From NCBI RefSeq assembly GCF_017569185.1, contig NZ_CP071869.1, forward strand, positions 3,400,001 through 3,464,000: a DNA stretch of 64,000 nucleotides, written 5' to 3'. The stretch is from Polaribacter cellanae (lineage in GTDB: Bacteria; Bacteroidota; Bacteroidia; Flavobacteriales; Flavobacteriaceae). Every line of letters begins with the position of its first letter. The stretch's first letter is position 1. The notes beneath the pieces are model-generated. The model saw only the letters and a program-made list of their open reading frames with translations. It was not told the origin of the DNA and did no database searches. Shown here in pieces: positions 3,884-48,126 of this stretch. Made by a program: the position numbers and the translations under genes.

Positions 3884-5213
3884 TATTTTCTTCATCGGAA
3901 TTGGTGGTATAGGAATGAGTGCAATTGCACGTTTCTTTGCTATGAATGGAAAGCAAGTTGCTGGTTACGATAAAACACCTTCGCAAATCACAAAAGATTT
4001 GGGAGATTTGGGTGTGGAAATTCATTTTGAAGATGCTGTAAAAAATATTCCGATTTCGTTTTTAGATCAAAAGAAAACATTGGTGGTTTACACACCAGCA
4101 GTTTCAAAAAATCATGCTGAATTGAATTATTTTCAAAATAATAATTTCACGATTTTAAAAAGAGCAGAAGTGTTAGGTTTAATTACTAAAACTACATTTT
4201 GCTTGGCTATTGCTGGTACACATGGAAAAACAACCACATCTAGTATTTTAGGACATATTATGGAAGAAGTAAAAGCCACTTCTTTTTTAGGCGGAATCTC
4301 AGAAAATTACAATTCGAACTTAATCTTAGGAGAAGATAAAATAAGCGTTGTAGAGGCAGATGAATTTGATAGGTCTTTCTTGAAGTTGAGTCCCAATATT
4401 GCTTGCGTAACTTCTATGGATGCAGATCATTTAGATATTTACGAAAAGCCAGAAACGTTAACAGAATCGTTTGTAGAATTTGCAAATAAAGTTTCAGACA
4501 CTTTAATTGTTGCAAAAGGACTGCCTTTAAGCGGTTTGACTTATGCAATTGAAGAAAATGCAGATTATAAAGCCTTCAATTTAAAAATTGAAGAAGGAAA
4601 ATATGTTTTTGATGTGCAAACACCATCAGAAATTATAAAAAATATTGAATTCCATTTACCAGGAAATCATAATGTTATGAATGCTTTAGCGGCATTAGCA
4701 ATGGCAGATGTTTATGGTGTTTCATCAACAGTAATAAAACAACGATTAGGGAGTTTTAAAGGTGTAAAACGTAGGTTTTCATATAAAATTAAATCAGCAG
4801 ATTTTGTGTTGATAGATGATTACGCACATCATCCAACAGAGATAAATGCAGTAGAAAATGCTGTGAGAGAAATGTATCCGAAAGAAGAAATTTTGGTGGT
4901 TTTTCAACCACATTTATTTTCAAGAACGAGAGATTTTGTCGACGATTTCGTAACTGCTTTATCAAAATTTGATGCAGTTTTATTGTTAGATATTTATCCA
5001 GCAAGAGAAGAACCAATTTTGGGAGTTACTTCCAATTGGTTGTTGGAAAAAATTGATGGCGCGCATAAAAAAATGACTCAAAAAAATAATTTAGTAAAAG
5101 ATATTAAAAATTCGTCCGCAAAAATAGTGGTTATGTTGGGTGCAGGCGATATTGGAGTGTTGGTAAATGAGGTAACAAACGAACTTTTAAATCTTCCAAA
5201 AAATGAAGTTTAA
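3810..5213 (+). CDS. murC: UDP-N-acetylmuramate--L-alanine ligase
   Basis: MurC adds the first amino acid, L-Ala, to UDP-MurNAc. Visible motifs are the N-terminal nucleotide loop FFIGIGGIGMSAIARFF (about 29-45), the ATP loop IAGTHGKTTTSS (about 134-145), EADEFDRSFL, and the C-terminal DDYAHHPTEI near 340. Length is 467. The N-terminus is unusual: MurC normally starts within about ten residues of the GxGGxG loop, but here about 28 residues precede it. Residues 13-25 are encoded by the right arm of the repeat element. No ATG, GTG or TTG lies between 3810 and the loop, so translation must cross the repeat. The 3' end overlaps ftsQ by 11 bases. Confidence 0.96.
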   Translation: MKENSLNTINSQKVLPLGKDLGWDFIFFIGIGGIGMSAIARFFAMNGKQVAGYDKTPSQITKDLGDLGVEIHFEDAVKNIPISFLDQKKTLVVYTPAVSKNHAELNYFQNNNFTILKRAEVLGLITKTTFCLAIAGTHGKTTTSSILGHIMEEVKATSFLGGISENYNSNLILGEDKISVVEADEFDRSFLKLSPNIACVTSMDADHLDIYEKPETLTESFVEFANKVSDTLIVAKGLPLSGLTYAIEENADYKAFNLKIEEGKYVFDVQTPSEIIKNIEFHLPGNHNVMNALAALAMADVYGVSSTVIKQRLGSFKGVKRRFSYKIKSADFVLIDDYAHHPTEINAVENAVREMYPKEEILVVFQPHLFSRTRDFVDDFVTALSKFDAVLLLDIYPAREEPILGVTSNWLLEKIDGAHKKMTQKNNLVKDIKNSSAKIVVMLGAGDIGVLVNEVTNELLNLPKNEV

Positions 5214-13517: not shown

Positions 13518-14261
13518 TTATATGCCCATAATTTTGTGATATTCCTCCATGCTTACTTCTTTGTAAAAATCGTTCGGAATATCAAATAAATTTTTTTCTA
13601 ACTTTTTAAATTTAATACTATCAGCATTAATTATTAAAGATTTATCTTTAGATATGGCTTTAAGAACAAAGAGATCTTTAATAAAAAGTTCTTGAGGTCC
13701 AACAGATAATTTTTGCCCTTCAGCAAACCAAACATCAAACTCTCCAGAAGTTTGTTGTGGATAGTTTCCAGCAAAGGTTATTTTGCCATTTTGAGTTGAA
13801 ATTTTATGAATGGGATTCGATTCTTTTAAATTTTTAGGTAAACCATCGTAATATGGAATCATATGGTTTTTTGGGTCTAAAGTTTCTTTTATCTTATACC
13901 TGTGCCCGTTAAAAGTCTCCATCCATATTAAACTGGTGTTATTTTTTCGGTATTTTACTACTTTAGCTTTCTCATAATAATCAGACATTTTTTTACTTGT
14001 TGATGAGAGTATTATTTCTTTTGTTATTCTTTTTTTAATATCGAAAAAAACTTTTACTTTAAGAGTGTCATATTTTGGAAATAACGATGTATAATGAGAG
14101 TAAAGTGAATCTTTTTTGTTTTCAGGTACGCCTTGTAACTGATTTTTTATTAATGTATGATTATCATTAATTAAAGAATATACTATTTCGCCACTATTTT
14201 TTTGTGTTTCACAAGAGCAAAAGACTATTAAGAAAATAGCCATAAAAGATATTGTTTTCAT
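13518..14261 (-). CDS. GLPGLI-like lipoprotein
   Basis: A 247-residue secreted lipoprotein with signal peptide MKTISFMAIFLIVFCSC (lipobox Cys at residue 15-17). It has the layout of GLPGLI-family proteins: an N-terminal GEIVYSL strand, a segment WMETFNGHRYKIKE, and a late GEFDVWFAEGQKLSVGPQELF region corresponding to the WYTPDIP...GP block. The GLPGLI hexapeptide itself is not conserved, so the family call is tentative. Function is unknown. It is monocistronic, with no clear partner nearby; the 256 bases upstream (14262-14517) show no feature. Confidence 0.55.
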   Translation of the reverse strand: MKTISFMAIFLIVFCSCETQKNSGEIVYSLINDNHTLIKNQLQGVPENKKDSLYSHYTSLFPKYDTLKVKVFFDIKKRITKEIILSSTSKKMSDYYEKAKVVKYRKNNTSLIWMETFNGHRYKIKETLDPKNHMIPYYDGLPKNLKESNPIHKISTQNGKITFAGNYPQQTSGEFDVWFAEGQKLSVGPQELFIKDLFVLKAISKDKSLIINADSIKFKKLEKNLFDIPNDFYKEVSMEEYHKIMGI

Positions 14262-15495: not shown

Positions 15496-17193
15496 CTACA
15501 AAGCTTCCACAAACAAACCTTCGTCTGTTTTAGAAACTTTGGCAACTTCTTTTTTAGTTAAACCTTTTATGGTTTTGTCCCATTTTTTGTTCGACAAACC
15601 AGATTGTGTTTTTAAATCGACTAATTCTATTTTTTCTGATTTTGTAATAATAGCAAGTAAATCTTTCTCCTCAACAGTGAGTTCTACATCTGCAGCGATT
15701 CGCTGCTCTGGTCGCATTTGAGGGAAAAATAGCACTTCTTGAATTGATTGATTATTGGTTAAAAACATAATTAATCTGTCCATTCCAATTCCCATTCCAG
15801 ATGTTGGAGGCATTCCATACTCTAAGGCACGTAAAAAATCGTGGTCTATAAATTCTGTTGCTTCATCATCTCCTTTAGCCGCTAATTTAAGTTGATGTTC
15901 AAAGCGTTCACGTTGGTCAATTGGGTCGTTTAATTCGGAATATGCATTGGCAATTTCTTTACCACAAACCATTAATTCGAAACGTTCTGTTAGCTCTGGA
16001 TTGTCTCTGTGTTCTTTACAAAGTGGCGACATTTCTTTTGGGTAATCTGTAATAAAAGTAGGCTGAATGTAGTTTCCTTCACATTTCTCACCAAAAATCT
16101 CATCAATTAATTTTCCTTTTCCCATGGTTTCATCCACATCAATCCCTAAAGATTTTGCGGCAGTTCTAATTTCGTCTTCTGTTTTTCCATTGATGTCGAA
16201 ACCCGTAAAATGCTTTATAGAATCTGCCATTGTTACTCTGGCATAAGGTGCTTTAAAATCAATTTTGTGTTCTCCAAAAGTGGCTTTCGAAGTTCCATTT
16301 ACTGCAATTGCACAATGTTCTAATAATTGCTCACAAAAATCCATCATCCAATTGTAATCTTTGTACGAAACGTAAATTTCCATGGCAGTAAATTCAGGAT
16401 TGTGCGTTCTGTCCATTCCTTCATTTCTAAAGTTTTTCGAGAATTCATATACACCATCAAAACCACCAACAATTAAACGTTTTAAATACAATTCGTTGGC
16501 AATTCTCATATATAATGGAATGTCTAACGAGTTATGATGTGTTATAAAAGGCCTTGCAGCTGCACCACCAGGAATTGGTTGTAAAACTGGAGTTTCTACT
16601 TCAAAATAACCAGCGTCGTTAAAGAAAGAACGCATGGCATTAAACAATTTTGTACGTTTTATAAAAACCTCTTTTACATTTGGGTTTACCACCAAATCTG
16701 CATAACGCTGTCTGTAACGCATTTCTGGATCCGTAAAAGCATCGTAAGTTACGCCATCTTTTACTTTAGGAATTGGTAAAGGTTTTAAGGCTTTAGAAAG
16801 TATTTTAAAATTCTTAACCATTACTGTTTTTTCACCTACTTTTGTGGTAAATAACGTTCCTTCAATACCCACAAAATCTCCTAAATCTAATAATTTTTTA
16901 AAGATATTGTTGTATAAAGATTTATCTTCTCCAGTACAAATTTCATCACGATTAAAATACAATTGTATTCTACCTTCACCATCTTGTAATTGCCCAAAAG
17001 AAGCTTTTCCTTGAATGTTAATTACCATTAAACGTCCAGCAATAATTACCTCTTTACCTTCCTCGTAATTCTGTTTAATTTCTTTTGAGTTAGAATTTAC
17101 TGGAAACAAATCTGCAGGATATGGGTTTATGCCCAAATCTCTTAATTTTGCAAGTTTTTCTCTACGTACAACTTCTTGTTCTGATAATTGCAT
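15496..17193 (-). CDS. lysS: lysyl-tRNA synthetase, class II
   Basis: Charges tRNA-Lys. The N-terminal OB-fold anticodon domain (about 50-160) includes GKASFGQLQDGEGRIQLYF. The class II catalytic core follows, with motif 2 FRNEGMDRTHNPEFTAMEIY (about 262-281) and motif 3 GMGIGMDRLIMFL (about 475-487). At 565 residues it is about 60 longer than E. coli LysS. The extra C-terminus after the catalytic core (from LTVEEKDLLAIITKSEKIEL) looks like a small winged-helix-type appendage with a Lys-rich helix, common in Bacteroidota but of unclear role. The minus-strand promoter is at 17230-17260. Confidence 0.97.
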   Translation of the reverse strand: MQLSEQEVVRREKLAKLRDLGINPYPADLFPVNSNSKEIKQNYEEGKEVIIAGRLMVINIQGKASFGQLQDGEGRIQLYFNRDEICTGEDKSLYNNIFKKLLDLGDFVGIEGTLFTTKVGEKTVMVKNFKILSKALKPLPIPKVKDGVTYDAFTDPEMRYRQRYADLVVNPNVKEVFIKRTKLFNAMRSFFNDAGYFEVETPVLQPIPGGAAARPFITHHNSLDIPLYMRIANELYLKRLIVGGFDGVYEFSKNFRNEGMDRTHNPEFTAMEIYVSYKDYNWMMDFCEQLLEHCAIAVNGTSKATFGEHKIDFKAPYARVTMADSIKHFTGFDINGKTEDEIRTAAKSLGIDVDETMGKGKLIDEIFGEKCEGNYIQPTFITDYPKEMSPLCKEHRDNPELTERFELMVCGKEIANAYSELNDPIDQRERFEHQLKLAAKGDDEATEFIDHDFLRALEYGMPPTSGMGIGMDRLIMFLTNNQSIQEVLFFPQMRPEQRIAADVELTVEEKDLLAIITKSEKIELVDLKTQSGLSNKKWDKTIKGLTKKEVAKVSKTDEGLFVEAL

Positions 17194-17290: not shown

Positions 17291-17322
17291 TTTGCGGAAA
17301 TACGAAATCGTTGTATATTTGC
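17291..17322 (+). promoter_or_regulatory. promoter of the small-RNA candidate
   Basis: TTTG at 17291-17294, 19 bases, then TATATTTG at 17314-17321: a full consensus match. The first hairpin of the candidate RNA begins 5 bases downstream. Confidence 0.8.
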
Positions 17323-17432
17323 ACGCTACTTTTTGTTGAAGTAGTATTTAGTTGTGTTGTTTGGCACTTTCGAAAAAGTGTCTTGGTTTTGTTAACCAAT
17401 GGAAAGCTTCCCTTAAATGGGACGCTTTTTTT
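17323..17432 (+). ncRNA. candidate structured small RNA
   Basis: About 110 bases hold four consecutive hairpins: CTACTT/AAGTAG (17326-17344), CACTTT/AAAGTG (17365-17380), TTGGTT/AACCAA (17383-17399) and a final GC-CCC/GGG-GC stem (17405-17424) running into seven T residues. A consensus promoter stands directly in front and an intrinsic terminator at the end. The long plus-strand frame crossing this region is hydrophobic, lacks family features and is better explained as chance. I do not recognise the RNA; tandem short hairpins do not look like 6S, tmRNA or RNase P. Confidence 0.65.
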
Positions 17433-17574
17433 GTTTATAAGCGTTTTTATTTCTTTTTTTTTTGGAGCTATTTCTAGCTTTTACTACTCGCTTTTTTTAT
17501 GCTGAATTTATTTCAACATCTTTCATTTTTAAAAAGTAAGTGAATTAAAGTAACAGATATTGAATCGAGTTCAG

Positions 17575-17665
17575 CATAAAAAAAGCTCAAACAATTAGCC
17601 TGTCTTGAGCTCGGTTGAGAGATTTAACCTAGGCTAGATTTGTTTGCTAACTTTTTTTTCAGTCT
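17575..17665 (-). repeat. dispersed GTTAGC...AATTGTTTGAGCT repeat, copy 2
   Basis: On the minus strand GTTAGCAAACAAA...CTAATTGTTTGAGCTTTTTT parallels the copy at 10025. An internal GAGCTC and an upstream TGCTGAATTTATTTCAAC (about 17500) are also palindromic. The remainder of 17433-17737 is AT-rich with no supported gene. Confidence 0.5.
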
Positions 17666-47973: not shown

Positions 47974-48004
47974 TTGCTCAATTTAAAAATCCGTCTTATT
48001 TTTG
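47974..48004 (+). promoter_or_regulatory. promoter of the trp leader
   Basis: TTG (47974-47976), 20 bases, TATTTTTG (47997-48004). The leader ATG is only 7 bases beyond the -7 box, so transcription probably starts at or 1-3 bases before it (leaderless mRNA). Confidence 0.78.
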
Positions 48005-48011
48005 TAGAATA

Positions 48012-48062
48012 ATGAAATCAATTACAAAAAATATATGGTGGTGGAACTCTCTTAATAAATAA
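48012..48062 (+). CDS. trpL: trp operon leader peptide
   Basis: Sixteen residues, MKSITKNIWWWNSLNK, with three tandem Trp codons. It is followed by a transcription terminator and the trp genes. By analogy with classical attenuation, ribosome stalling at the Trp codons when Trp-tRNA is scarce would prevent termination. Confidence 0.88.
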   Translation: MKSITKNIWWWNSLNK

Positions 48063-48126
48063 GTGAGAAGAAAACCTATATTATAAATATACAAAAAAGG
48101 CTTATCTCACGATAAGCCTTTTTTAT
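48063..48126 (+). promoter_or_regulatory. attenuator of the trp operon
   Basis: The terminator is GGCTTATC / GATAAGCC (48099-48118, loop TCAC) followed by T residues. GTGAGA (48063-48068), right after the leader stop, is exactly complementary to TCTCAC at the top of the terminator hairpin (48105-48110) and may form the competing structure. The overlap with the stem is smaller than in the gat attenuator, so the antiterminator assignment is less certain than the terminator. Confidence 0.75.

Follow-up and report, generated by a model that had tools for sequence, protein, structure and literature searches.

The window analysed here is a 64,000-nucleotide stretch of the Polaribacter cellanae genome (contig NZ_CP071869.1, positions 3,400,001 to 3,464,000). 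At 17291-17432 of this window, the initial annotation had placed a candidate for an independent small RNA, of four tandem hairpins with a promoter and terminator of its own, divergent from lysS. In window coordinates, the features at the locus are:

15496-17193, minus strand: lysS, the divergent neighbour, outside the RNA and present at 33 of 33 same-genus loci
17291-17294, plus strand: TTTG, -33 element of a flavobacterial sigma-A promoter; TTG kept in 27 of 33 same-genus loci
17314-17321, plus strand: -7 element TATATTTG; -7 box in all 33 aligned same-genus loci
17326-17432, plus strand: putative small RNA of about 107 nt, its start predicted from the promoter
17325-17345, plus strand: hairpin 1 (5' hairpin), from the MFE fold; variable within the family
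17351-17361, plus strand: near-invariant single-stranded seed GTTGTGTTGTT, mean unpaired probability 0.976
17363-17382, plus strand: hairpin 2, of variable sequence with compensatory changes
17383-17399, plus strand: hairpin 3 with a GGU...ACC core, from the MFE fold and the family alignment
17401-17432, plus strand: intrinsic terminator hairpin and T run; stem 17401-17431, then seven T; preceded by a conserved CCAATG

The proposed promoter is present, with a spacer of 19 bases between TTTG and TATATTTG, and some 100 bases separate the -33 element from the start of lysS on the minus strand, which makes the RNA unit divergent from lysS. PMC9723704 maps the sigma-A box of F. psychrophilum as TAnnTTTG at -12 to -5; by this placement the RNA would start at approximately 17326 and span about 107 nt.

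The locus is single-copy in its own genome. The open frames across it are short (41-75 aa) and the hairpins covary, which argues against coding, and a coding role for 17291-17432 is dismissed. To the initial annotation, too, none of the protein frames looked real. We also dismissed a cis-element of lysS, as the RNA lies on the opposite, divergent strand and exists without lysS in many genera, and a phage origin, as there was no phage match. On the 3' side of the RNA, the gene-free stretch at 17495-17640 contains TATGCTGAA ... TTCAGCATA together with other inverted words, and may be a repeat remnant. Elsewhere in the window, a Bacteroid-trp leader (RF01692) at 47992-48106 on the plus strand scores 50 bits against a cut-off of 49 and is thus barely over it.

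Fold, covariation and distribution of the RNA

The MFE fold of 17324-17440 contains all four hairpins of the initial annotation, and the last stem is followed by the seven T of its proposed terminator. The folding energy is -34.4 kcal/mol compared with a mean of -20.1 for 200 dinucleotide shuffles (z -4.92), and none of the 200 shuffles folds as well. Covariation in relatives had been named as a check on the RNA, and compensatory changes above the level of shuffles are found in both alignments that we analysed. In the first alignment (A1), made with MAFFT and comprising 25 rows, both sides change in 6 of 25 pairs, with 17 such cells compared with 3.8 in shuffles, and 0 of 500 shuffles reaches this number. 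The second (A2) consists of 51 matches aligned to a covariance model and hence leans towards that model; with this restriction, both-side changes occur in 10 of 19 pairs (134 cells vs 31.3 in shuffles), and hairpin 2, the first helix of the model, has compensatory changes in all 5 of its modelled pairs. Hairpin 2 thus varies freely in sequence but preserves its base pairs, a hallmark of an RNA; for hairpin 3 and the terminator, the support comes from constancy more than from covariation.

How far does this RNA extend beyond P. cellanae? A DNA search of 59 relatives matched 34 of them, namely 33 of the 36 same-genus genomes (own genome included) and, in part, one genome of another family; the three same-genus genomes that gave no match are only 53-71% complete. 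In the 33-row same-genus alignment the flanks vary, and the -7 box, the seed, GGTTTTGTTAACC and the terminator are constant. A covariance model (R1) built from 25 sequences, applied with E up to 1e-3 and strict filters, matched at least 113 of 299 Flavobacteriaceae genomes and at least 99 of 236 genera, the filters making 113 of 299 a lower bound. In a sample of the phylum it matched 22 of 247 genomes, all of them Flavobacteriaceae. The match in the genome of F. limi has the contig and coordinates of the match in G185 of the family sample, which identifies the family as that of Flavobacterium and genus g147 as Flavobacterium itself. Matches of the DNA search in genome G045 and in some genomes of the family cover part of the RNA only and look like chance or terminators; family counts were taken from the covariance model and not from these partial matches. 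Judged from these sequence comparisons, the locus is that of a true RNA family of the Flavobacteriaceae. The independent small RNA with its own promoter that was proposed initially is likewise supported, as a candidate, by the conservation of the promoter, the compensatory changes, the terminator and the lack of an Rfam match.

The genomic context of the family follows two main patterns. At 72 other family loci (some places were fetched twice), the neighbour is lysS in 27, tRNA-Asp in 32 and neither in 13. The window locus has, as read from its letters, a promoter and an intrinsic terminator of its own, whereas in many other genera the RNA comes after tRNA-Asp instead. There, in Flavobacterium and others, tRNA-Asp is followed by a terminator-like hairpin in the position of hairpin 1, then by the seed, by hairpins 2 and 3, and lastly by the terminator.

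Several genomes carry two or more copies of the RNA. Multiple or tandem copies are seen in G140 (up to five matches), G092, G298, L086 and L088, and in L088 some of them lie behind consecutive tRNA-Asp genes. In F. psychrophilum (G589:C43:1-19000), an island of about 9.5 kb, containing an integrase-like gene (named by eye), lies between two identical copies at 4281-4370 and 13774-13863, one of them after an intact tRNA-Asp and the other after a tRNA 3' end. It appears that tRNA-Asp serves as the attachment site of this island and that the island brings its own copy of the RNA. In one relative (L020:1392-1477, plus strand), a Flavo-1 element adjoins the RNA locus; this element is outside the window.

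Seed-complement sites on message starts

Across the RNA family, the single-stranded segment GUUGUGUUGUU, 11 nt long, hardly varies. In A1, GTTGTGTTG is the same in all 25 rows, and across 75 members the first letters of the seed have a mean open probability of 0.66, with a value of at least 0.5 in 53 of 75. We located complements of this seed relative to start regions, defined as -70 to +25 of an ATG. The pattern AACAACACAM occurs 62 times in the own genome and its reversed pattern 63 times; a genome-wide excess of the motif was thus rejected, and only its placing is special. The sites comprised 60 stretches and one further site inside them, or 59 distinct non-self sites with the RNA itself excluded, and 11 of these lie on start regions in sense and none in antisense.

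The exact complement AACAACACAAC has 11 non-self sites in the own genome, seven of them on start regions in sense: purC (-18 relative to the ATG), purD (-16), purH (-16), prs (-28), pnp (-45), guaA (+4) and tkt (+5), all named by NCBIfam HMM. Contiguous pairing with the seed is longest at purD (14 nt) and purC (13 nt), where it is better than all 200 shuffled seeds. Shuffled seeds do as well in 2 of 200 cases for tkt and 4 for purH, while guaA, prs and pnp are not clearly above them, with 7, 8 and 13 of 200 as good. Boxes of the -7 type just upstream of many sites place those sites inside short mRNA leaders. A near complement of the seed, AACAACACAC, is also located some 37 bases ahead of the 6S-Flavo match of the own genome (L193, G000:C1:408382), and another genome (L165, G028) shows a very similar sequence context.

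In another genome of the genus (G019), start regions carry 4 of the 11 exact sites, at adk, rpe, an aldolase and guaA, the last again at +4 like its counterpart in the own genome, and purA has a 10-mer of the seed complement; these genes were named by eye, and the start of guaA equals that of L243. Nine other RNA-bearing genomes, representing eight other genera with F. psychrophilum as second Flavobacterium, have 66 non-self exact sites, of which 27 are on start regions in sense and none on start regions in antisense, the remainder being 26 elsewhere in coding sequence in sense, 8 in coding sequence in antisense and 5 other. The 27 sites come from six of the nine genomes; G238, G261 and G285 lack exact 11-mer sites on start regions. 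They precede 26 genes, many of which are cut by the end of the locus, and 11 of these belong to de novo nucleotide synthesis: purB (twice), purC, purD, purE, purF, a PurM-like AIR synthase, carB (twice), pyrD and pyrG, the purF and purM matches being well below curated cut-offs. The other genes are folD, glnA type III, rpe, tkt, pgi, GAPDH, an aspartate aminotransferase-like protein, thrC, ribBA, pnp (three times) and three unrelated ones, for DUF2853, a ClC channel and an endonuclease/phosphatase-family (phosphatase-like) protein. The set of targets varies between genera.

Could these counts reflect composition? Flavobacterial leaders are A-rich, and A/C-rich words might simply be common ahead of start codons in this group. 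Other 11-mers of the same composition (A7C4), counted on the same stretches, had 400 sites, of which 20 (5%) hit a start region in sense, compared with 27 of 66 for the seed complement (Fisher p 8e-14). Furthermore, 16 of the 33 genes with start-region sites in the own and the nine other genomes are nucleotide-synthesis genes, and we regard a composition artefact as extremely improbable. Nine RNA-negative genomes of other families, taken from the R1-negative phylum sample with a preference for many first-look candidates (and hence likely AT-rich), have 4 of 30 sites on start regions, compared with the same 27 of 66 (p 0.009). Two pattern-based matches to the RNA in these genomes are due to chance and were counted as ordinary sites within the 30. 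The four start-region sites lie at genes for a TolC-like protein, an integrase, a DUF7674 protein and an unnamed protein, with no nucleotide gene among them.

Like a trans-acting base-pairing sRNA, the window RNA has a conserved seed that is predicted to be unpaired and whose complement recurs on the start regions of several mRNAs. We propose, with a probability of roughly 0.8, that the RNA acts in trans by base pairing with ribosome-entry regions and represses nucleotide synthesis. Alternatively, AACAACACAAC might be the site of an unrelated factor, either the DNA operator of a repressor or the target of an RNA-binding protein, with the seed match being coincidental or the RNA gene itself carrying an operator. 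Operator-binding purine regulators are known in other phyla, and pairing is predicted here from the letters of the genomes. Nonetheless, all 34 exact start-region sites (7 in the own genome and 27 elsewhere) are in sense and none in antisense, an orientation that a DNA operator does not need, and some lie within the coding start (guaA +4, tkt +5). The seed, moreover, sits in a structured RNA with covarying hairpins and, at tRNA-Asp loci, behind the tRNA and a terminator-like hairpin. The sense-only orientation, the placing at leader 5' ends or first codons and the lack of nucleotide-gene sites in RNA-negative genomes all argue for pairing, and we consider an unrelated factor very unlikely.

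A putative nucleotide regulon and its relation to known RNAs

How would a base-pairing sRNA act on these messages? RNA polymerase would start at about 17326 and stop at the terminator near 17432, and the exposed seed GUUGUGUUGUU would pair over 11-14 nt with AACAACACAAC, about 30 nt or less from the start codon. In the own genome, the mRNAs predicted to be bound are those of purine and pyrimidine synthesis (purC, purD, purH, guaA and prs), and in some genomes genes of precursor supply such as tkt, rpe, folD and glnA, among others, may be bound as well. Flavobacterial mRNAs have no Shine-Dalgarno sequences and have short leaders, so that masking of the site should block ribosome entry and repress the genes together; activation of some targets may occur instead. 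Hairpins 2 and 3 and the terminator could serve as scaffold and stability elements.

The match between the seed and message starts suggests that the sRNA may be a family-wide switch for nucleotide production. A wider view, which we hold tentatively and at somewhat less than even odds, is that of a core RNA regulon, in which one ancient sRNA would replace protein repressors such as PurR in the Shine-Dalgarno-less Flavobacteriaceae and would set the synthesis of purines, pyrimidines and PRPP jointly through the masking of ribosome-entry sites, its GcvB-like seed having been reached independently. Aspartate is a substrate of purine and pyrimidine synthesis alike, and the RNA often lies right behind tRNA-Asp. 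The proposed control of nucleotide synthesis by the sRNA would give an entire bacterial family a core sRNA regulon, in a phylum for which few sRNA targets are known, and would provide a concrete account of how nucleotide synthesis can be coordinated at translation without Shine-Dalgarno sequences. It would also provide a ready set of target leaders for studying sRNA action in the phylum.

A base-pairing sRNA is of an ordinary kind; as far as our searches show, what would be new is a family of this extent with a coherent regulon. We found neither its family-wide extent nor a nucleotide regulon in the literature searched, and papers containing the 11-mer included none on a bacterial sRNA among the matches listed. 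No paper on nucleotide targets of this RNA was found, the nearest being the one that describes Rfp18 of F. psychrophilum (PMC9723704).

Rfp18 is described there as a structured sRNA whose conservation reaches beyond F. psychrophilum; its deletion lowers fpp1 mRNA, and its third stem-loop is predicted to pair in the 107-bp fpp2-fpp1 spacer (PMC9723704). Rfp18 may be the F. psychrophilum member of our sRNA family (G589:C43:13774-13863), in which case expression and a deletion phenotype would already be published. Might the main role of the RNA then be the tuning of secreted metalloproteases, with the nucleotide sites being secondary? The 106-nt stop-to-ATG spacer between tandem metalloprotease genes of F. 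psychrophilum, which we take as fpp2-fpp1, carries AACAACACA, a 9-nt seed complement found in 8 of 2540 background windows, and Rfp18, like the window RNA, is structured and conserved in Flavobacterium. However, the reported pairing lies in the third stem-loop and not in a single-stranded seed, the reported targets are proteases, and four metalloprotease leaders of the F. psychrophilum genome have no comparable seed site (PMC9723704 for the first two points). A main role in protease tuning is improbable, and we retain repression of nucleotide synthesis as the preferred reading.

None of the Rfam covariance models scores over threshold at the locus, the best match being Phe_leader with 24.8 bits against a cut-off of 55. 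Flavo-1 (RF01705), which the initial annotation had suggested as a motif to look for, is a flavobacterial RNA motif as the window RNA is flavobacterial; it gives no score over its gathering cut-off here, and the suggestion thus did not hold. 6S-Flavo (RF01685), also a flavobacterial sRNA of about 110 nt, stays below its gathering cut-off at the locus, and a 6S RNA was dismissed because the genome has its own 6S-Flavo in another place, at G000:C1:408419-408547.

The closest likeness in the seed is to GcvB. The identical 11-mer GTTGTGTTGTT occupies positions 72-82 of E. coli K-12 gcvB, within the G/U-rich R1 seed segment. GcvB, known from E. coli and relatives, uses a single-stranded seed to bind the C/A-rich starts of mRNAs and represses a large number of metabolic genes together. 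Nonetheless, the window RNA fails the RF00022 model, is half as long as GcvB and has other hairpins. GcvB is a neighbour of gcvA, in contrast to the window RNA with lysS (33 of 33 same-genus loci) and its family with lysS or tRNA-Asp (59 of 72 other loci), and membership in GcvB was dismissed on the lack of an RF00022 match and of a gcvA neighbour. The targets differ as well, amino-acid transport for GcvB and, by its sites, nucleotide-synthesis genes for the window RNA. The shared seed is apparently the result of convergence, and would be a case of two phyla converging on one 11-letter seed for different pathways.
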